DNA of 64,000 nt from Geosiphon pyriformis (Eukaryota > Glomeromycota > Glomeromycetes > Archaeosporales > Geosiphonaceae): positions 507,639 through 571,638 of the forward strand of contig JAAOMT010000289.1 in the NCBI GenBank assembly GCA_016748015.1, in the 5' to 3' direction. A program made the position numbers and the translations under genes. Numbering within the stretch: the stretch's first letter is position 1; every line of letters begins with the position of its first letter. Shown here piece after piece: positions 6,415 to 62,330 of the stretch. The notes under the pieces are model-generated. The model did not search any database. It saw nothing but the letters and a program-made list of their open reading frames with translations, and had not been told where the DNA came from.

Positions 6415-9400
6415 ATGAATCCAGTTATAGGAGTAAATCTAACTAATCACCCAGATTTACCAAATTCTCTCCAATGGTCCGAAGATAACCAAATTGCCGT
6501 GGTTACTCCTTCAGCTCTTTATATTTTCGTGAGTTAAAGTATTAATGCATATTTTTTTTATTAACTCAAATTAATTTTCTTTTTCCAAAATCTTTTAGTC
6601 ACCTAAATATAAAGGGGCTTATCCTCTTGGCCTCAGCAGGTTGCACATGACCATTTTAAGTCTTGAAAACGTGGCAGTAAAAAGCCCTTTTCCGAAATAT
6701 TCAAATGGTAAACAATTTAATCCTTAATAGTTTTCAAAGCTATATTTCAAAAGGTGCAATAAACCTTGATCATTTTCAGATTTTGCAACCCAATCTACCT
6801 TTTTTTCCGCGGAGGGGTTTCGCTGCTTGACATGGTCACCAATTGGTTGCTCTAATTATAAAGGGTAAGATAATCTAGATTTCTGCAATTATCTTGTTAC
6901 GTGGATATTCAAAGTTGTATTCTTTATCTATACTAGCTGCTTGTTGGCAGCAATCACGACACATTTTTATGTCGGCATATATGGTCCAAAGTCAGGATCA
7001 AACAAGGATGAGTGGGTTGAGGTAAATTTTCCGAATCCATATAGTAAAAACTCTTTGAAATTAAAGATGAAATAAACAATTGATCTTGTCCTCTCTCAAA
7101 AATAGACAGTAAATCTCTCCCAACTTTTAATGGAATCATTGACCACCAGTAAATATCAGTCTAGCATCCCTAAGATACTAACTGATGAAATGTCATCCAT
7201 GTGTAAGTGCATCTAAACTGGTATTGTTTTTGTTTTATTAAAAAACACTTTCCTTACACCTAATCCTTTTATCTGTTTTATAAAACAGCAATATCATGGT
7301 CACCACAATGCTTTTCTGTATATCATAGTTTTTTTTCCTTGATCGCTCTTGGTAGTAAAGCTGGGATTATAACATTGTGGAGGTTCTGATACCATTCTGA
7401 TATATTGATTCGGTCTGATGCCAATATATATTGATTTGGCCCTGGGTTGTTTTTAGTTATACAAAAACCACTGATCATATAAACACCTTCAAAGCTCACG
7501 ATTCTTGGGTTGTGGTAATAGCTTGGTCACGTTGGGAGCAAGATTCGGATAACACATGTAAGGAACCATTCACCATCTTTAAATATCCTGTCAAGCTTTT
7601 CTTAGTAAACCTTCTATAGGTCTCTCTAAGTTGATTACCGGCTGTGTGGATGGCTCGATATCTCTTTGGAATATAAAATTGGCTTTATCTAATAATTCAA
7701 CTGGTCTTCAATTACCTGAGGTTACTGTTGAATTACAACAGATATTAACTAAAAAGGATTATGTGGTGCCCTCCGTAGCAAAGTGGTTTTTCACCATGGT
7801 AATGTCTTTAGTCGGATTTTGAATGATTAATGTATTGCAACGTTAACTAATAAATATTTCTCTTATTTTAGGGTCACGGAAGTGATCAAGTCGCAGTTGC
7901 AAAGGGTACTAAAATATACATTTGGAATATCTCTTCTTCCTTGGTGCAAATCATCGCAGAACCTGTAGAATTAAATAACTTCTTTTTCTCCCCCATGTCA
8001 ATTACAGGTAACTTAGTTTATTATTGCTTAACTTTTAGTGTATATATAGTCATCAAAATAAATTATATTCCATCATATGCATGGAGAGAAGGTTTAAGCT
8101 GGAATCACAATGGAAGTCAATTACGTGTTTTCACTGTTGACGGAAAGCATACGGCTTTTGATATAGTAAACAACACAATTCATATGAACGATTATTTCAC
8201 GGAATTTATGAGTGAAAAGGTGGACGAAATATGTTTCGAGCAATTAATGAATCTAGATGATGATGAGATTGAACTTGGTTTGGAAGAAGAGGAAGAAGAT
8301 GATGACGACGATGATGAAAATAACGAAGATATCGTTAATAGTCGAACTTTGTTCTATGGAGCAGATGGATCCGCGAATGGCCTTTACATATCGATGATAT
8401 TCGGGTAAATATGCGTCGTTTATGAACCTTTACAGAATGCTGAATATTTCAAATTAATAGAATCCTTTCACTTCAGAATGCTCTCTCAAATAGATATGGA
8501 GTATGTGACGGACAAGGCTGATAACGCATATTTGTGTCTTTTTTTAATCGAAGAGGAGGATCTGGCTCAATTCAAGGTTACACTAATAACACGATTAAAG
8601 GAAATTCTTGATAACCCGTATCTATGTATTCAAGTGGGAATTCATTTTTTCGTGAATTTCCTTCATGTTATATTTAATTGACAGTTTATTTCTCTTTAAA
8701 TATTTTCCAGTGTTGGAAAAAACTCCTGGTTACTTGCTTTGGGATTTGATGGAATTTTTTGATATTCAAGATGATAAGATTGTCACTCTTTTCCCTGATC
8801 TTCTGAAGGCATGTAAGGATTTCTACCAGGTTTATCCCAGCAAACTTACTAATTTGCAAGATCTTGGTGAGTTGAACCAGAACCACAAGTGAGTTATGAT
8901 GCCAAAGAAAGTGTAGGTTTTCTTTAGTTCTTACACTCTAAACATTATGGTTTCAGTGACATGCTATTAAATCGTATTAGCCGCCTTTGGAAGGAGGTTT
9001 TCTTGCAAGATTGTTCACTGAATGCTCTCCGGCTTGCTTCCTTCTTATATAGCAAGAAGATGGTAACAATTTAGGAAATTCATGTGAATTTTTGCACAAA
9101 CTTTAAATTTACACTGCTTTATATCAAGGTCGAGAATTTTTTGTCTTCATCAAATTTACCAGCCACAGTTTATTCAGAAATCGAAGTCCATGCTGAAATA
9201 GAAAAGCACAGGTTAAACCTAATTTTGACCATAATACATAATTATTTAAATCAAGGTCTTCAGATTACAAATGGTAAGCTGAAAGATTTTTTTTGATTTT
9301 TTTGCCCAGTTAACAATTTTTCTTTAGCCATAGATCAGTTGTTCGTCCTAAATGTTTGCGATCGGACTCTGGTATATTTTGGAGGCGATCTGAACATACT

Positions 9401-10005
9401 CAAATTGGCAAATATTGGTTACGAATATATGAGCAATATTTCTCAAACACATACATGGGACGTGCAAAGGGAAATGAATTTCATTAGACGTATTCTCGTA
9501 ACGCGTCAAAATCCCAACAAGGACAAGTGGAAAGAGCCCATTCGAGAACCTTGTCCTATATGCAGAAAAGATATCCTTAAAATTTCTTGAATAGAAAAAG
9601 ATCTCATATTTATTAATCTATATTTCCGTTTTGAGATATTTCGTCTTTAAGTGTTTTGGTAATTGTTTCTACCTGTCTCAAGGGACATTGGATTGCGAGG
9701 TATTTGTGCAAATCAACACATTTGGGGTAAGTTCGAATTCGGTTCTCATTTAATAAGTGATCAATACATCAACTAAATCAACCTACAATACACTAGATAT
9801 TTGCTCGTTAACTTTAAGCCTATTATTCACCCCAAATGTGAGATCGTGCACAGGCTGTAAGCTTAAAGCCATTTCAATGCCGCAACCACACCCATTTGAT
9901 GAAGTAATCCATTCCTCGATTTTTGTTAAAGCGCTTCTAGAAGCATCGGATAGATGCCTCTTCTGTGGAGGGTTTTTCACGTCCTCGTCACAAATCTTTA
10001 TATGA
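6415..10005 (+). CDS. TFIIIC subunit, TFIIIC-delta / TFIIIC90 (S. pombe Sfc9, human GTF3C4) family
   Basis: This is a subunit of RNA polymerase III general factor TFIIIC, which recognises tRNA-gene promoters. At least a dozen exons join in phase. The N-terminal half is a WD40-like propeller: LQWSEDNQIAVVTPSALYIF at the start, then CLTWSP, ISWSPQCFS, AHDSWVVVIAW and ITGCVDGSISLWN. A strongly acidic linker lies at 8256-8330 (Glu/Asp run). The C-terminus has the TFIIIC zinc-finger pattern CPIC...CANQHIW...CSLTL...RSCTGC...CLFCGGFF. Linking the first Cys pair to the CANQHIW exon requires an AT-AC intron at 9571-9672 and then a GT-AG intron starting at 9727. The stop is TGA at 10003-10005. The family assignment rests on the zinc finger and propeller layout; sequence conservation elsewhere is weak. 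Confidence 0.82.
9571..9672 (+). other. Probable U12-type (minor spliceosome) AT-AC intron
   Basis: The exon ends ...TGC AGA AAA G at 9570. It is followed immediately by ATATCCTTAA, an exact match to the U12 AT-AC donor core ATATCCTT. The region then has in-frame stops. Ending the intron with TTTCTAC at 9672 restores the frame (G+CT) and leads directly into codons for SRDIGLRGICANQHIW. A branch-point-like TCTTTAAG lies about 22 bases before the acceptor, slightly farther than usual. No GT donor downstream of the CPIC codons and before the stop can do this. Confidence 0.72.
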
Positions 10006-10138: not shown

Positions 10139-11948
10139 TTATTTATAGTATTTGGGAGGCACAAAAGGCATTTTTACCACCTTGGCCCTTTGGTATCGAC
10201 TTCGAACCTTAACTTGTAGCCAAGTCCCAATTTTATGAAACCCATTTTTGACATAGCCCATTGCAATATTCTGTTTGAGGGAAGGCGATGGAATACCGCT
10301 GGTAACTTTACCTAAATTAGTGAACCAGAAAATGTCAATGGATGATCTGATAAAATCACGTTTTTCCTCCAAAGCTATTTACCAATGGCCTCTTCATCAA
10401 GGTTATAAATCTCCGCATTTTCTGAAAAAATAAGATCAGGGAGTGGATACAGTTTTGAGAAGAAAAATTATTTCAGAATATGATAGCATTCAAAAAATCA
10501 AGTTCTTTCAATTTTTTTACCCCTCGCTGGTGACCCTTCAACGATTAATCCAATGCGGCGGCGTTTGGGTCCCTCACGAAGGTCTCGAATTGTAATATCA
10601 GAACCTAAAAATCCCCCTTGCTGTCTTCTGCGCTGACCTACATCAATCAGAAAAGCATAGGCGTGAGCTGAAAATGTGATGAATCAAGATTTGTGAACAA
10701 ATCTTTCTTTACCAATCGTCCAACCCAATCCAGCCTCAATTGGAGTAGTGGTTTCATCCAGATCATGTCCATAAAGACAGAGACCGGCTTCTAATCGCAA
10801 ACTATCACGTGCTCCTAGTCCTGCCAATTGAACAGCAGGGTCAGCTAAGAGTGATTTTGCCAAAGGGACTGCTCCCGACGCGGGGATTGAAATCTATAAA
10901 TCATTAGGCTTGAGCTAGAATTGAAAAATCCATCTGAAAACCGATTCATTAACTCACCTCAAAACCATCCTCCCCAGTGTAACCGGAACGAGTGACATGA
11001 CAGTGAATACCATTTAAATCCATAAATCTTCCTGTCATGAATTTTAGGTCTTCCAAAGATTTTCCGGCTAACCTCTCTAGAGCTCGCGCAGCTTTTGGTC
11101 CTGAAACCAAAGTTACTGTAGAAGCGGGGGTCTTATCAACAGCGAAAAGATAAATTGAATACCTTGTAAAGCAACTAGGGCGTGATCTTCAATGACGTTC
11201 AACTCTGCCTCTCCTCCATTCTTTTGAAACTCGGCCAAATGTAGATGTATATGAGCTAGATCCTTATCTGCGCAAGCAGCATTTGAAACAATATATATAT
11301 GATCTTCACGTTGACATATGACTGTATCATCAATTATACCCCCATTTTCATTTGTAAAAACAGAAAGGGCTGAATGACCTAAAGGTAGACTCTTAATGTC
11401 TGCTACAATGAGTTTTTCTAAAAAGGATATCCGGTCTTTTCCAGTTAGCCTAAGTTGATTAGAAGAATAGGTAATTAATTATCAAATTAAATATCCATTT
11501 CTAAAGAGGTTAAAGCAACGGCAAAAGGAAAGAACCTTGTCTGAAGCATATGTGAAACATCAAACAGTGAGGCATTTTCACGCGTATGCAAATGGGAAGC
11601 AAGGATTCCAAGGCCCTGGTACTGAACTGGCATGGAGTACCCAGCGAAGGGGACCTTGGTCGGCTTTCATTAGCATAGCGCGAGAGAGCTGAAAATCCGG
11701 AACGTAGAATCAAGCAAGTCTAACATGTTACCATTTTAGCTCCATTTTCGACATGGAAATCATACAAGACTGTTTTTTTCAAAAACTAGTGCAATTGGGC
11801 ATATTGATTTTTTTTAGTTGTAAAGCTTTTATTTTTTAAAAAAAATTAATATACCTACTTCTGCTGGTGTTGAATAACGGCTTGTGAAAGATTTTAAAAA
11901 AGTTTTATTCGAGCTTGTGACGCGTGAGTAGAGGGGACGCATCAACAT
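10139..11948 (-). CDS. GCV1: Glycine cleavage system T-protein (aminomethyltransferase), mitochondrial
   Basis: The T-protein transfers the aminomethyl carbon from H-protein lipoate to tetrahydrofolate in mitochondrial glycine breakdown. Exon 1 (11859-11948) encodes a classical presequence, starting [13 protein letters not shown] and ending in SRYSTPAE. Exon 2 (11732-11785) reads [16 protein letters not shown]. Exon 3 starts at 11654 with [12 protein letters not shown] and continues [23 protein letters not shown]. The next exon gives [21 protein letters not shown]. The final exon ends with [20 protein letters not shown] and [11 protein letters not shown], the standard T-protein terminus. Splice sites are GT-AG. 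The ATATCCTT at 11425-11432 on this strand is coding (Arg-Ile-Ser-Phe) and is not a splice site. Confidence 0.95.
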
Positions 11949-15401: not shown

Positions 15402-17195
15402 AAGATATTATTAAATTATCTTTTGAAATATATACATTGCTTTTTATAATTCAAAGATGTTTTCGAGAAATTTTCCTTTATAGAAATTATTCAAAAGCTT
15501 GCTCATTTATTTCATTAATAAAAATTCAAATGATTTAATGAATCAAACAGTTTTTTCATTACATTAAAAGATGGCAAATAGGTTTGGACGATGATAATAA
15601 ATTTATTTCACACTTTATTATAGTCATCCTTTTTGGGACTTTATAATAAAGAGAAGTGGTTATAAATAGATTTATAAAAACTTTTATTTTATATATTAAT
15701 TAATTAAACTAAAAAATGTATTTAATTTTAACAATAGTAAAATATACTGTAACTTAATATTTAATATATATAACATTTTTAAATACATTTGCATTTGCAA
15801 TGAATTTTGAATTACTTTTTATGGATTCTATTATTGTAATTTGATGGACAAAAATAAATAAAACAAACAAGTAAACAAACAAGCAAAAAAATAAATAAAT
15901 AAATATTATGGGAAAATATTAAAAAGACAATCATTTGAAGATTTTTTTTCTAATGTCTAAGATCGACGTATAAAAATCCTTTTATTTAAAATTATATATA
16001 TGATAAGAAAAGCAAATTTATGAAATGTTAAATTTAAAAATCTAACGTTATTACTATAAAAGATAAAAGTCATTTTTTAACTAAAAATTATTTTTATTTA
16101 TAAAAATATAATTTTTTTTAAGAATGAAAAATATTTTTCCAAAAAAAAAAAAAGAATCCTAAATCCTTTAATTCCTAATCCCTAAAAATATAATTATTTT
16201 AACAGAAAAAAACAACAATTAATAAATTATTTCTTTTAATTCAATTTAATTCAATTCAATTCAATTCAATTCAAGTAACTTATTTTTTTTATTCAATTTT
16301 CTTGGCTTTCTATAACGATAAGGAAGACCCAACTAAAATCTGGAACGTTTTAATTAGATTTGTACTTGAACATGACGGGTAAGATGAAAGGAGGGTCATT
16401 TATTCATAATTTCGATTCAAAATATTTTTTTAAGTTACGAATAGTAAATTAAAATAAGAAATGCTAAACTTTGGGTTTTATATTTTATATATTAATTGAT
16501 TTTCAAAATTGATAAAGTAATTTAAAAAATATTTTTTATTATTTTTTTGTATTTATTTATATTTTTAAGTGTATTAATTATCAATGTATTAAAATTTTAA
16601 ATATAAGATTTTTTAAAATAATAACTAAAAATTTTAATATAATAATAGATTTATTTTTTTGCAATTAACAAAATCATAATTTGTATTACAAAAATACCAA
16701 TAAATTTAATAAATAATCAATTTAATTAAACAAACCATTTTTTTATATATTTAAAACTCCAAAAAAATTAAAATTTTTATTGAACACAATAAAATAAAAC
16801 ATAACAAAATATAAAAGATAAAATAATAAGTTTAATATAAAAAATTAAGTAAAGAAACCAGTTTATAAAAAACTTAAATATATATAATAAATAACTTAAA
16901 AATAAAAAAAAACTTTAATACTTATAACAATATTAAAATTATTATTATTATTTAAAAAACTTAAAAGTAACAATAATTAATTTTAAATTTTTTTTTAAAT
17001 GTTTTAACTAAATAAAATCTTTCTATTATCTATTGTAATTTACTACATAAAAAATTTTTCTTATTGTAAATTCGAATATAAATTACAAATTGCAGATCTA
17101 ATAAAATATAATATATTCGAATCTATAATACTATTTAAATAAAAAATTTTAATACTAAAATATAAAAAATATAATTATTTATTTACTTTTTTTTG
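15402..17195. other. AT-rich intergenic desert
   Basis: No gene is seen. The sequence is almost entirely A and T, with homopolymer and dinucleotide runs. A TTCAA microsatellite occurs at about 16237-16275. A small less AT-rich patch at 16310-16395 has no open frame of note. The rest could be decayed transposon DNA. Confidence 0.6.
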
Positions 17196-19952: not shown

Positions 19953-22900
19953 TTGACATCAGGAAACAGCACTAGTATACACTTATGGAGGATATCATAC
20001 CAGGAGAATCATCAACCATCAAGCTGAACAAGCAATCAACGAAATTATGGTTTCAGGAAACTACTAATAAACTGTTATTATTGAATCTCTGTCTATTATA
20101 CAAAGAACTCAATTGGAAAATCTTCAGATAAAATACCTTCAGATTATCATTATTACCAATTACCTTAAGCACCAAGTTATGGGTTTGTTATTCACTTGAT
20201 ACCCCAAAGAATTACCTATAATACCGTTCAGAAAAACCAGAAACAGAGACAGAAATAGAGCCATCATGTAAGATCAGCCTATTCCTTTCCATAACAGCAT
20301 GGTATTTCACACGGACCAGCCAAATATTGTCCTAGAAAGCAATATAAAAATCATGCACAAAGTTCACCACATTAGTAGCCATCATCTTAGAGTCCTTAAA
20401 AGTGGAAACAGATTCCTGATACCAATCCCTGAAAATGAAACCCTTGCACAGAGCTGCACCAGTTACAACATCAGATGTGCAAGCAGACAACAGCTGTGAA
20501 ACACAAGAGAAGGAATGAGATAAACCAGAACAGGTCTTCCAAGTTACCGCAAAAGTATTCATCAAATGAGAACAACCAGTAGCATCAAAAGAGCAGGAAA
20601 AGACATGATCAGAAACCTCAACATCACCACAGAATAAACATGCCATGCTGGGATAATATCTATCATATAGACGCTTACGTATAGTCACAAGAAGTCAGTG
20701 GTACAGAGCCTTCATAAAATAAGTCCAAAGGCCAGTTGTTTGTGCACTAATAGAACCAGCAGCCATGTGAGAATTGGAGTGCCACACCAAAAAAGATCTG
20801 GACCAATTAATATCACCACATAAACCACCAACCACAACCTGAGAACCAGAACCAATCTCCCAATGCATTCAGTTAACAGACCAAAAAACATCATAAACAA
20901 AGTGTCTTAAATTACCAGAAACCACAGAACCACCACCTCTTAAAAAATGTTCACCAATCCTATGAGGAGCCACCAAGAAGAGAAAGCAGCCGTCTTAGCA
21001 AGTACATTGGCTTGTTTATTGTCTGAGACACCTGAATGACCCTTAATTTTGACCCAATTCACATTCAAATTCTTATTCTAAATAACATCAACAATGTGGT
21101 GATGCTCAATCCAGCACCGATTCCTAAAATCAAGACGAATCAATAAAAATTCAGATTCACATGTATTCAAAGCCACTTGGTTGTCTGAAAATAAGTCAAT
21201 CAAATGAAAAAAAAAAATACACTCAAATGCCAAAGCAATGGCCTGTAATTCTGCCAGCATCGAGGAAACCATGTTAGACACCCTTATACCCAAATCCAAA
21301 TGAATGTCCTCAAAAAAAGCAGTAGCACCAGCCTTCATACTAACAGTACCCAAACCATCTGTATATACAGAAAGACTAATAGCAGCATTAGTGTTCAGCA
21401 GAGCATCACAAACAACACCAAAATCATGTGAATGAAGAACATCAGAAAGAGCATAACCATCTATGGAGGGAAGGCAAACAGAAGAAGAAGAAACAACATC
21501 ACTAAAAAATTGTACAGAGAAATCAAACCAGAGAGAAACTGGGCCACAGAGGTCCAGTCTTTTCCAGTATTTAAAAATATTCCAACTAAAAATGGCACCA
21601 GCCCAGTCACATAACTGCTCCATGAAAGCAACACCATAGTGGCAGAGTGAGGAAACATACTTGAAAAAGCAATGCTCACCAAGAACAAAAGACATAGGAG
21701 AACCACCACAAAAACGAAAAGCACTAGGAAAAGAACCACCAAGAGACAAATCACATCCAGAAAGGATATGGACCACTCCAGCCAAAAAATTGTTTATAGA
21801 ACAGACCTTAATATGAACTGGAAATTGCAAAGGATGATGAGGATACCAACTGAGAACCTGAAGGTCATGAGATCTGTGAGAAAATAAATGACCCAATAAC
21901 TCAACAGAATTTACAAAAGAAACAACAGAAGCCAATTTGCTCTCAGCCTGAATTTGTTCAAAAGTTCTTAGACCATACAAAAAGGAATGATAGAGTGCAT
22001 TATTGAAGAAGTCAAGCAGAAAGCCAGCCTTAGACTTCAAGCCTTTGTGAATTATAACATCCCACTTATTGCACACACTCAAAGGAACATAACTGAATTG
22101 CGTCCTGTAGCAGACAATTGGAAAGAGTACAACAGACACCAAATACACAAACTGTTTATCTGAAACCACTTTTTTTAAAACAAGATTAGCAAAAAACCAA
22201 ATATCTGAATGAACTTTGACCAGGCTAGACCTCGACAATCTCTCAGTTGACAAAAAAATACTCAGATAACAATGACATTCTCCTTTCTTGGCAATGGAAA
22301 TAGGTGAGCCACTGATAGTCAGATAAGAGTTTACAACCTGGCAGTTAATAGGGATGGCCACTGTTTTGTCATTATTTATTGAAATGTCATTAAACCTAAA
22401 AAACTCACTAGCAACATCAAGGATGTGTTGTATAGCAGTCTGACTGCTACCAACCCAAATTGTATTGTTAACAAAAGCACTGGCAGCAAAAAATAATGTC
22501 AATCTGGTCTGAGGATCCATTCAACCAGTTTTGGATATAAAATGAGAATTCAATCTGTATCCACATACACTCTTCTGCCTCTTGACTTCACACAAAAGCG
22601 AATCATAGAAGATGCACCAAAGAAGAGGTAAGAAAACTTCCCCTTGGTCCAATCTATCATGAACATGATACCTATCAGTCAAGCCAAAATCTGTTATCAC
22701 CCTATTGATGCACCCATTGTAAATACCACCAAAAAATCTTATAAACTTGTCACACATTTTAATTCTGACCAAACTCCTCCTGAAATGTTCCCAACCAACT
22801 GAGTTATAAGCCTTGTGCATGTCCTGCAAAACCAACCAGAGTTCTTGGTTCTTCTCCAAGGCATCTTTAACAACAGAACCAATAGTAAAAATGGGGGACT

Positions 22901-24764
22901 GTGTCATCGTACCTTTTAAAACAGAAAAATTGTTCCCATGAAGAACATTAAATGTACTACAAGCTAAGGAAATCCTATCCAAAAAGACCTTGAAAAGAAT
23001 CTTGCAGGCCGTTTCAATCAAAGCAATAGGATGGATGTTCGTGAGAACTCTCTCCCATTCATAAGGTTTCGGGATCATCAAGACCCAAGCTTCCTTCCAA
23101 GGTCCAAAAACTGATTTACTAACCAGGCAAAAGTTCAAAAACACCAGAAGCATATCCAAAACTGACTTGTTACATCATTTCTACAATTCATTAGAGATGC
23201 CAGAAAGTCCAGCAGCTTTTCCATCAGGAAGCTTTTTAACAATGGCAGACATTTCATCAAAATCAATAGGACACATAATCCCAAAAAAAGCATCATTAAA
23301 CATGTAATTCAGAGGCTGATATTGGTGGGTTCAATCATCGGAAACATCAGACACCACTTTGCGTTTCCTGGTCCATCCTTCCATGATCTCATCCACCTTA
23401 GACTTAACCAAATCAGATTCCAAAATCAACTCATTCTCCACAACAAGATGATCTAAGACCACTTTGCAGAAGGGACACTCCAACACACTCTTAATGGTGT
23501 GGTCTTTGTTCAGCTCAAAACTCTTCATTCTTTTATTAATGACTTGCTTAATAGATGATTTTTTAGCATGTTTGGATTCCAACAACTTAGAAGAGCAATA
23601 CAACTTTCTTGCTTTGGCCAGTGTAGAGCAAATGACATCAAAATTAGAACCTGAAAGTAAAAGGAACTTTACTGCTAATGCACCAGTAGAATTGAGTCTG
23701 TCTCACACCTCAAACAAAAAAACAAAATCATCACTAGAAACTGAACATGAGGCCTTGACCAATTTAGATATCAGCAATTCTAGCTTATAAAATCTGGAGG
23801 ATACCTTGGTAAAAACACCATCAAAACTCTTAAACCACTTTTTTTTGAACATTCTATCTGCTGAAAGAACCATAATCTTGCAAATAATGTCCCACATGAC
23901 ATCCAAATCCAAAAATCCACTGGCTGAAGAGAACTTATTCGAAAACATTACAGTATTGGCCACTGTAGACACTCAAAACTCACACCATTTAGTACCATTT
24001 GTGTCTTTGACATCAAATTTTCAACAATCCTTATTTGCTTGTTTGTGCAACAAAATCAGACAAACATCAAGCAAGCCACCCAAACTCACAGAGACAGAAA
24101 CAGCTTTGTGGTTAGTATCAAAATGGTCCACAACATTAGCCATACTATAATTCACAATTGCATTAACCAGATTTGAAGAGACGAATAAATAATCAATCGT
24201 TTTTAATACACCATAAGAATTACTCCAAATAGGTGCCTTCACAACTTAGAGAATTCATCAAACCTAAATCAAAGCATTTTTTATAACTAGCACACTTACA
24301 AAACCCATCCTTATTAAAATCACTACTAAAAATAACAAAGGATGAATCATTCACAGCCTTGGCAATTAGAGAGTTGACATCACCAGCTTGAGAAAACCTG
24401 ACCGCCGAAGAGGCACCAGCATAAAGCCCCAAAATCAAAACTGAAGGCTTGTTTCTGAAAAGCAGCCTGATGGAGATGAGCTGGCCAGGCACCTTAGAAA
24501 CCTTGCAAATGTGCTTCGCTAAAGAATTGTTCATGACAACAGCCACACCAGCACCCAGATAACCAGAATTCAGACCAAAAGTAAACACCCACACACCATC
24601 AAACCTATTGGCAATCCAGGGGCAAACCTTTTTTTTTAATTTTAATTCAGTAAAAATAGAAATCAAATTGTCCATATCTTTGTGCCAACAAATAACATCA
24701 TCCTGCTTGGTAAGATTGTTCATCCCATGAATGTTACACATGGCAATCTTTCAAACAAAATCTG

Positions 24765-26651
24765 TTATTTAAAAAAGTGTTTGAGAAGTGCACCACTAGC
24801 CAGAATTGAATCATCAAACCTTGCTGTTAGACTTAGAACTGAAGCAGAAAGTCCTTCCAACATATTTTCCAATCTTTTTATCTCAGGAGAAACAGAAAAA
24901 ACCGAAATCGCAGCAGTATTACCACTAGTGGCCCCACCCAAGCCCTCTCTTATTACTATATTACCCACTTGATCCTGTGATGGGGAGGTCACTGACAGCT
25001 GACATCCAGAGCTAGACTGAGAAACTGCCAGCACAAATGAGTCCAATCTCTTAGCCAATTCACCAATTTGCCCCACGAGATTGGCAATACTGCTTTCCAG
25101 AACTGCAAATCTTATATCCAAATCACTTATAACAGGATGAGTAGGCTTTATCTCCAAAGAGAAGCCAGCATTTACCAAATCATTATGAATAGGGGGAGGA
25201 GGGAAAGAAGACTCACCAACAATTTTGGCCCACGAGACTCCACCAAAAGAGACAGAATGAGCAACAGGTGCTGAATGCTTGGCATAAATGGCTGCCAACT
25301 TGCCTTTATCTGCATCTGACAAAACTTGATGTGGCAAGCCACTAGAGGAAGATTTCCCACCTGAAACACAGCCCAGAGATGTATGATCCAGTTTCTCACA
25401 CTTTGCACACATAGCAGAGCCAAGATAGAACCAATAAAGATGAGCACCTTTTAACACAGGTGTGGTTTCCATGACGGCATCCAATGATTTAGCTAACTTG
25501 AAACAAACAATGGCACATCTGGCCTGAGCATATGTAACTAGATAGCAATCAATTACACAAGTTTTTCCACCCACAGAACCAATGAAATTCCAGACGTTGT
25601 GAGCATTCGTTCCCACTGGAAGAGTATAGAGCAGCACCCTATAATAATCTCTCATATCCCATGTCAATTTGTCCATATCTGATCTGGCAACACACACCGC
25701 ATCTTTCCCAATTAGGATAGACTATCTAGCTGCCAAAAAATCTGCTTGATTCCACTCCTCAAATTCCACAATCACTTTCTGCTACAGTCCTATCAACTGC
25801 ATCTTGATTGACTTAATCGTACCAAATTCAGATAGCGCAGTGCACACAGCCTCAGCTGATGTTTCCACCAGAATTTCTTTTAGCACCACAGCCCGATCTG
25901 AGTGACCAGTCAATTTTTTGAGATTGGTGTTCACCAGAATTTTCACATTAGCAGCCAATTTGGTAGCTTTCATTAAACTAGATTCAGAAGTGAATATTAC
26001 CCAGATGATTCCAGAAAATTTTGAGAGGGTAGAGGCCCTCCCAAAACTATTGATTTTTGAAAATAATTTTCTGACCACAACCAGCTTGTCCTGAGCAAAT
26101 TTTCCAGAAATATTGATCAGATCAATATCCAAAGCAAAAGACTTCCTAGCAGACATATTGACTAATTTTTTGAGAAGAAGGGGAAGCACCACAGGTTTAT
26201 TCAGGAAAATGTCATCATCATCATCATTGCCTAGAAAGTTAATTTTGCCCAAAGGCTTGTTCAAAGCCTGTTTGGTAACCAATCTTGGATCTTTTGGCAT
26301 TTGGTTACTGTCCATTCCTATAAGAACATTTCTCTCTTCATAATTTATACTAGTTTCCTCAATTAAAAACTCCCCCTCCATATCTACACTGTCCGATTTG
26401 GTGGTATCACCAGCTTCAAACCCCCAAGAACCACCAACTGGTTGATCAGGTAAAACCATTCCATGAACAACACTGTCTTTTAGAACACCTCCTTTTCTTT
26501 TTTTTCTAAAGGCAATATTTTTGCTAACAGTATCCTCACTAAAACCTTTGACAGACTTTTTTATCACAGCCATACTAAAACCAACAATGGTTTTGTAGTT
26601 GAGCAGAAATGGTTTTGATTTATCATACTGAATTGTAAAAACTTCTTTCAA
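24765..26651 (-). pseudogene. LINE A ORF1 (gag-like, RRM-like domain and CCHC knuckle), broken
   Basis: Two open stretches (25782-26651 and 24765-25697) are separated by in-frame stops. The N-terminal part has KSFALDIDLINISGKFAQDKL, followed by an RRM-like unit ending ALSEFGTIKSIKMQ. The second stretch carries a zinc knuckle CAKCEKLDHTSLGC (C-x2-C-x4-H-x4-C). Its C-terminus, around PEIKRLENMLEGLSASVLSL, looks like a coiled coil. The role in LINEs is RNA binding in the ribonucleoprotein. The upstream in-frame sequence (VFTIQYDKSKPFLLNYKTIV) is also present in relic F. Confidence 0.8.
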
Positions 26652-26707
26652 AAAACTTTTGACTCTTTTTTAAGAATTTAAGACAAAGAAGAGAAAAAAG
26701 TTTTTAC

Positions 26708-62120: not shown

Positions 62121-62202
62121 GGTGATTTGGCCGAGTTGGTCTAAGGCGCCGCACTCAAGTTGCGGTCTCGAAAGAGGCGTGAGTTCGAATCTCACAGTCA
62201 CC
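62121..62202 (+). tRNA. tRNA-Leu (anticodon CAA)
   Basis: An 82-base cloverleaf with a long variable arm, as in class II tRNAs. The acceptor stem GGTGATT pairs with AGTCACC. The D-arm contains the A-box TGGCCGAGTTGG. The anticodon stem CCGCA/TGCGG encloses CTCAAGT, with anticodon CAA at 62156-62158. The T-arm has GTTCGAATC (B-box). No intron is present. The CCA tail is not encoded by rule; a CCA occurs here by chance from the next base. Confidence 0.95.
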
Positions 62203-62330
62203 ATATCTTCTATGCTCATTGTTAGTAAATTTCCTTAAAAATTCTGTATTTTAGCATTTTATAACAAAAGCCTTTTTCTCCTTATAACAAAATATTTCAG
62301 TGATTATTTTACAGAAACTGCAATTCTATT

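Follow-up and report, generated by a model that had tools for sequence, protein, structure and literature searches.

The closest described systems are found among early-diverging fungi. Larue and Roy (2023; PMC10639083) predicted minor introns in two species, Rhizophagus irregularis (205) and Basidiobolus meristosporus (249). Rhizophagus has the full set of four minor snRNAs, and its introns display an animal/plant-like consensus and favour phase 1 (PMC10639083). Smaller numbers of U12 introns have been reported from Rhizopus oryzae (about 4) and Phycomyces blakesleeanus (about 20) (Bartschat and Samuelsson, 2010; PMC2846911). An initial annotation of the DNA described here pointed to reports that Rhizophagus keeps minor introns; it also implied that such introns are a rarity in fungi, and this was overstated, as hundreds are published for two early-diverging species.

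Because fungal minor introns have already been published, the kind is known, and the segment at positions 9571–9672 of the window (the whole analysed stretch of 64,000 nucleotides) is a further member of it. The gene that carries it encodes a TFIIIC subunit, and TFIIIC is not named in the main text of PMC10639083. As with R. irregularis and B. meristosporus, the present genome is that of an early-diverging fungus with many minor introns; it differs from Rhizophagus as far as small-subunit rRNA (SSU) sites tell. With R. oryzae and P. blakesleeanus it shares AT-AC as well as GT-AG U12 introns together with U12-spliceosome RNAs, whereas those two species have few such introns and belong to another lineage.

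The segment lies in a gene whose identity as TFIIIC, proposed in the initial annotation, is borne out by domain matches. The N-terminal exons match the Pfam TFIIIC_delta propeller at 72 bits, and the C-terminal exons match zf-TFIIIC at 55.5 bits when 9571–9672 is removed, both scores being above the cut-off. The propeller and the C-terminal zinc finger that mark the TFIIIC90/GTF3C4 subunit are thus both present. A single copy of the gene was found across the 124.7 Mb of the genome searched. All its modelled introns other than 9571–9672 are GT-AG, the stretch at about 7383–8082 having been modelled in part. Coordinates are given in Table 1.

Table 1. Positions in the window of the TFIIIC90/GTF3C4-type gene and of the features at and around its probable AT-AC intron.
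Feature	Position	Strand	Basis
TFIIIC90/GTF3C4-type subunit gene	6415..10005	+	TFIIIC_delta and zf-TFIIIC matches, exon model
Upstream exon, ends in CPICRK, phase 1	9328..9570	+	Exon model
Probable U12-type AT-AC intron, 102 nt, phase 1	9571..9672	+	Donor, frame, zf-TFIIIC score, GTF3C4 alignment
5′ splice site ATATCCTT, exact match to the U12-type consensus	9571..9578	+	Sequence match
Best candidate for the branch site, GTCTTTAAG (weak), 21 nt from acceptor	9643..9651	+	U12 duplex
3′ splice site AC (TTTCTAC)	9671..9672	+	Sole standard acceptor keeping frame and full loop
Downstream exon VSRDIGLRGICANQHIW, same frame as upstream exon	9673..9726	+	Exon model
Ordinary GT-AG intron (GTAAGTTC...ACTAG)	9727..9796	+	Exon model
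Last exon, ICSLTLSLLFTPNVRSCTGC...CLFCGGFF, stop TGA	9797..10005	+	Exon model

The insert is located inside the zinc finger and contains in-frame stops. Its first eight nucleotides fit the U12-type donor RTATCCTT exactly, as the initial annotation had stated for the AT-AC minor consensus. The chance of finding this motif within the ∼27 nt able to hold the donor is ∼0.0016 under a first-order Markov model. The octamer alone is not proof, because the window contains seven copies of it, and of the six elsewhere at least three (at 11430, 21769 and 42651) are in coding frames.

Removal of the segment with AT-AC ends restores the reading frame, and the resulting finger, C-x2-C-x13-C, aligns without a gap to residues 736–786 of human GTF3C4 (TFIIIC90, PDB 8cli), which has the same zf-TFIIIC finger and HIW motif; this likeness is at the protein level only. 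The alignment is weak by itself (E = 1.7), and it is the sole PDB match and to the correct protein. The claim that an AC acceptor at 9672 rebuilds both frame and finger is upheld accordingly, as is the further claim that no GT-AG solution keeps the first Cys pair. The latter follows from an enumeration that found 52 frame-compatible donor/acceptor pairs (GT-AG, GC-AG, AT-AC, AT-AG and GT-AC), among which no GT-AG pair keeps both CPIC and CANQHIW, each removing the first Cys pair wholly or partly.

These pairs bear directly on the proposal that the major spliceosome removes the segment through GT-AG or GC-AG sites and leaves a shortened zinc finger, a very improbable course of events. Frame-keeping GT-AG pairs are available, for example 9553–9699, 9527–9682 and 9490–9699, but besides cutting into the first Cys pair they have poor donors. 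The GC-AG pair 9562–9699 keeps both Cys pairs, with a poor donor (GCAGAAAAGA) and deletion of the 13-residue loop. The zf-TFIIIC score is best for the 9571–9672 splice and falls to 42.1 bits for GT-AG 9553–9699 and 42.9 bits for GC-AG 9562–9699. An alternative AT-AC pair, 9573–9686, scores 53.3 bits, only 2 bits lower than the best, and this is a point against the exact boundaries 9571–9672.

The in-frame stops might also signify that the insert is retained or regulated, or that the gene copy is decaying, the stop at 9588 cutting the protein off partway through the finger. Several properties of the locus make this most unlikely: the gene is present once, the frame is intact on both sides of the insert, the downstream cysteines are conserved, and ordinary GT-AG introns flank the segment on both sides.

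A genome search for minor-spliceosome components, which had been suggested as a check, was productive at both the RNA and the protein level. Rfam matches above the gathering score were found for U12 (55.1 bits), U11 (80.9 bits) and U6atac (70.9 bits). The U4atac candidate, on the minus strand of locus L003, scores 43.7 bits, below the gathering score of 53, but near its 5′ end it has CGTCCTTATTCGGGG, which is mostly complementary to CCCCTCGATAAGGACG of U6atac; the duplex has a calculated energy of −42.6 kcal/mol compared with −25.1 kcal/mol for the wrong strand. With U4atac accepted on this complementarity, all four minor snRNAs are represented. The U11 gene displays an AAAAGGG 5′ end, a CAAGAG motif and an Sm-like site, the U12 gene has GAGTAAGGAT and the U6atac gene has AAGGAGAGA; we take these motifs to have their generally known roles in the respective RNAs.

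The protein search covered PDCD7/U11-59K, U11-48K and CENATAC. PDCD7/U11-59K is present (35.6 bits, above the cut-off), and the candidate also has a structural-database match to PDCD7 in the solved U11 snRNP (E = 5.4e-7). A U11-48K-like CHHC finger scores 27.3 bits and its best PDB match, a weak one, is U11-48K. CENATAC/CCDC84 is encoded in three exons and is above the cut-off. In human cells, CENATAC is required for AT-AN minor introns (PMC8280824).

The branch site is weak. Candidates were sought near the consensus TTCCTTRAY, within about 8–21 nt of the acceptor. The best one departs from this consensus and pairs with the U12 RNA of this genome at −5.2 kcal/mol, while several GT-AG introns of the TFIIIC gene reach −7.5 to −9.9 kcal/mol; U12 duplex energy therefore does not separate 9571–9672 from the GT-AG control introns of the same gene. 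In well-formed minor introns of this genome the distance from the end of the branch motif to the acceptor is 10–21 nt, and thus the distance here is at the edge of the range and not outside it.

U2-type AT-AC introns, which are excised by the major spliceosome, do occur, and their known donor form is ATAAGT. That the segment belongs to this class has little probability. A branch site that is not clearly U12-like would suit it, but the donor is of the U12-type consensus (RTATCCTTT; PMC2846911) and the minor machinery is present.

The anatomy of 9571–9672, the restoration of the protein and the machinery genes are direct observations. From the sequence evidence, the segment is very probably a genuine spliceosomal intron of the U12 type (A-type, AT-AC), in the single-copy gene for the counterpart of human GTF3C4/TFIIIC90, and we infer that it is spliced by the minor machinery of this genome. 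In the standard pathway, CCUU in the donor would base-pair with U11 and the GUCUUUAAG branch region with U12; U6atac would then take the place of U11 at the donor, and CENATAC would assist excision. Excision would link CPICRK to the remainder of the zinc finger.

Other U12-type introns appear to be present. The genome was scanned with a strict full donor-branch-acceptor motif, and the genome-wide raw count was not above that of a reversed-pattern control (27 vs 100 rows). Since the control had more rows, motif counts alone prove nothing, and candidates were therefore judged by whether their removal joins the reading frames of conserved genes. For about ten other full-motif candidates, removal brings open reading frames together. 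Joined peptides scored above the cut-off for MIOS_WD40, STX6_10_61_N, ORC_WH_C, uDENN and RPN1_C, and the ORC_WH_C (L029), uDENN (L031) and RPN1_C (L022) candidates are GT-AG U12-type introns. One further joined peptide has an LsmAD match just below the cut-off, and another has a PDB match to the S6/EF-hand junction of a voltage-gated calcium channel.

The location of the intron in a Pol III factor gene raises the question of a regulatory role. The initial annotation proposed that tRNA output may depend on minor splicing. In an extended form, the intron would be a switch by which limiting minor splicing, or the supply of U6atac, sets TFIIIC, Pol III transcription, tRNA output and perhaps the synthesis of U6atac itself, which is a Pol III product. 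In human cells the U6atac level does limit minor-intron genes (PMC3728624), and the U6atac gene found here ends in a T9 run, like Pol III terminators. However, a scan of the surroundings of the U6atac gene found no B-box, the TFIIIC site, and consequently a TFIIIC–U6atac loop is without sequence support. A growth-linked switch is disfavoured because proliferating cells of Rhizophagus retain minor introns modestly more, rather than less; that survey found that minor splicing was not raised in such cells (PMC10639083). The proposed dependence of tRNA output is unsupported, and the switch is highly unlikely.

The genome has two identical U6 genes, only one of which has a B-box, 365 nt downstream in neighbouring tRNA-like sequence. 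This is the copy at G000:C397:351303-351407 (L047), where the U6 gene is closely followed by the tRNA-like gene that holds the B-box. The other full-scoring copy (L046) has no B-box in the range scanned.

The fit to a glomeromycete, raised in the initial annotation, is partial. The rDNA was located through 5.8S. The SSU (L037, reverse strand) differs at one position from each of the AML1 and AML2 primers, whose letters were confirmed from papers on arbuscular mycorrhizal fungi, and has an AM1 site with four mismatches. The AML sites are glomeromycete-like, but the Glomus-type GLOM1310 site was not found, nor were LETC1670 and GIGA5.8R. We read the organism as a fungus that is glomeromycete-like or from a neighbouring early-diverging lineage, and probably other than Rhizophagus. 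The region expected to hold the LSU reads N. Besides the strong nuclear 5.8S, there are weak 5.8S matches of 49.9 and 45.2 bits at L035 and L036 (G000:C317 and C202). These are possibly 5′ ends of bacterial-type 23S genes and could signify endosymbiont or organelle-derived DNA.

Elsewhere in the window, one open reading frame matches FLILHELTA, a mainly fungal family. Adjacent long open reading frames at 20332–26669 on the minus strand appear by eye to be pieces of a LINE-type retroelement, with reverse-transcriptase-like, RNase H-like and zinc-knuckle-like stretches; those at 21078–22520 and 24765–25721 have no Pfam match. Positions 16001–64000 form a strong composition mosaic, with 4-kb blocks ranging from 16% to 38% GC. 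A tRNA gene at 62121–62203 is the sole Rfam match in the window at the gathering score.

The general picture is unchanged, since published minor introns of fungi already number in the hundreds. What is added is one minor intron with good support, together with a substantial parts list of four snRNAs and three specific proteins, from an early-diverging fungal genome. Both are useful for tracing the loss of minor introns across fungi.
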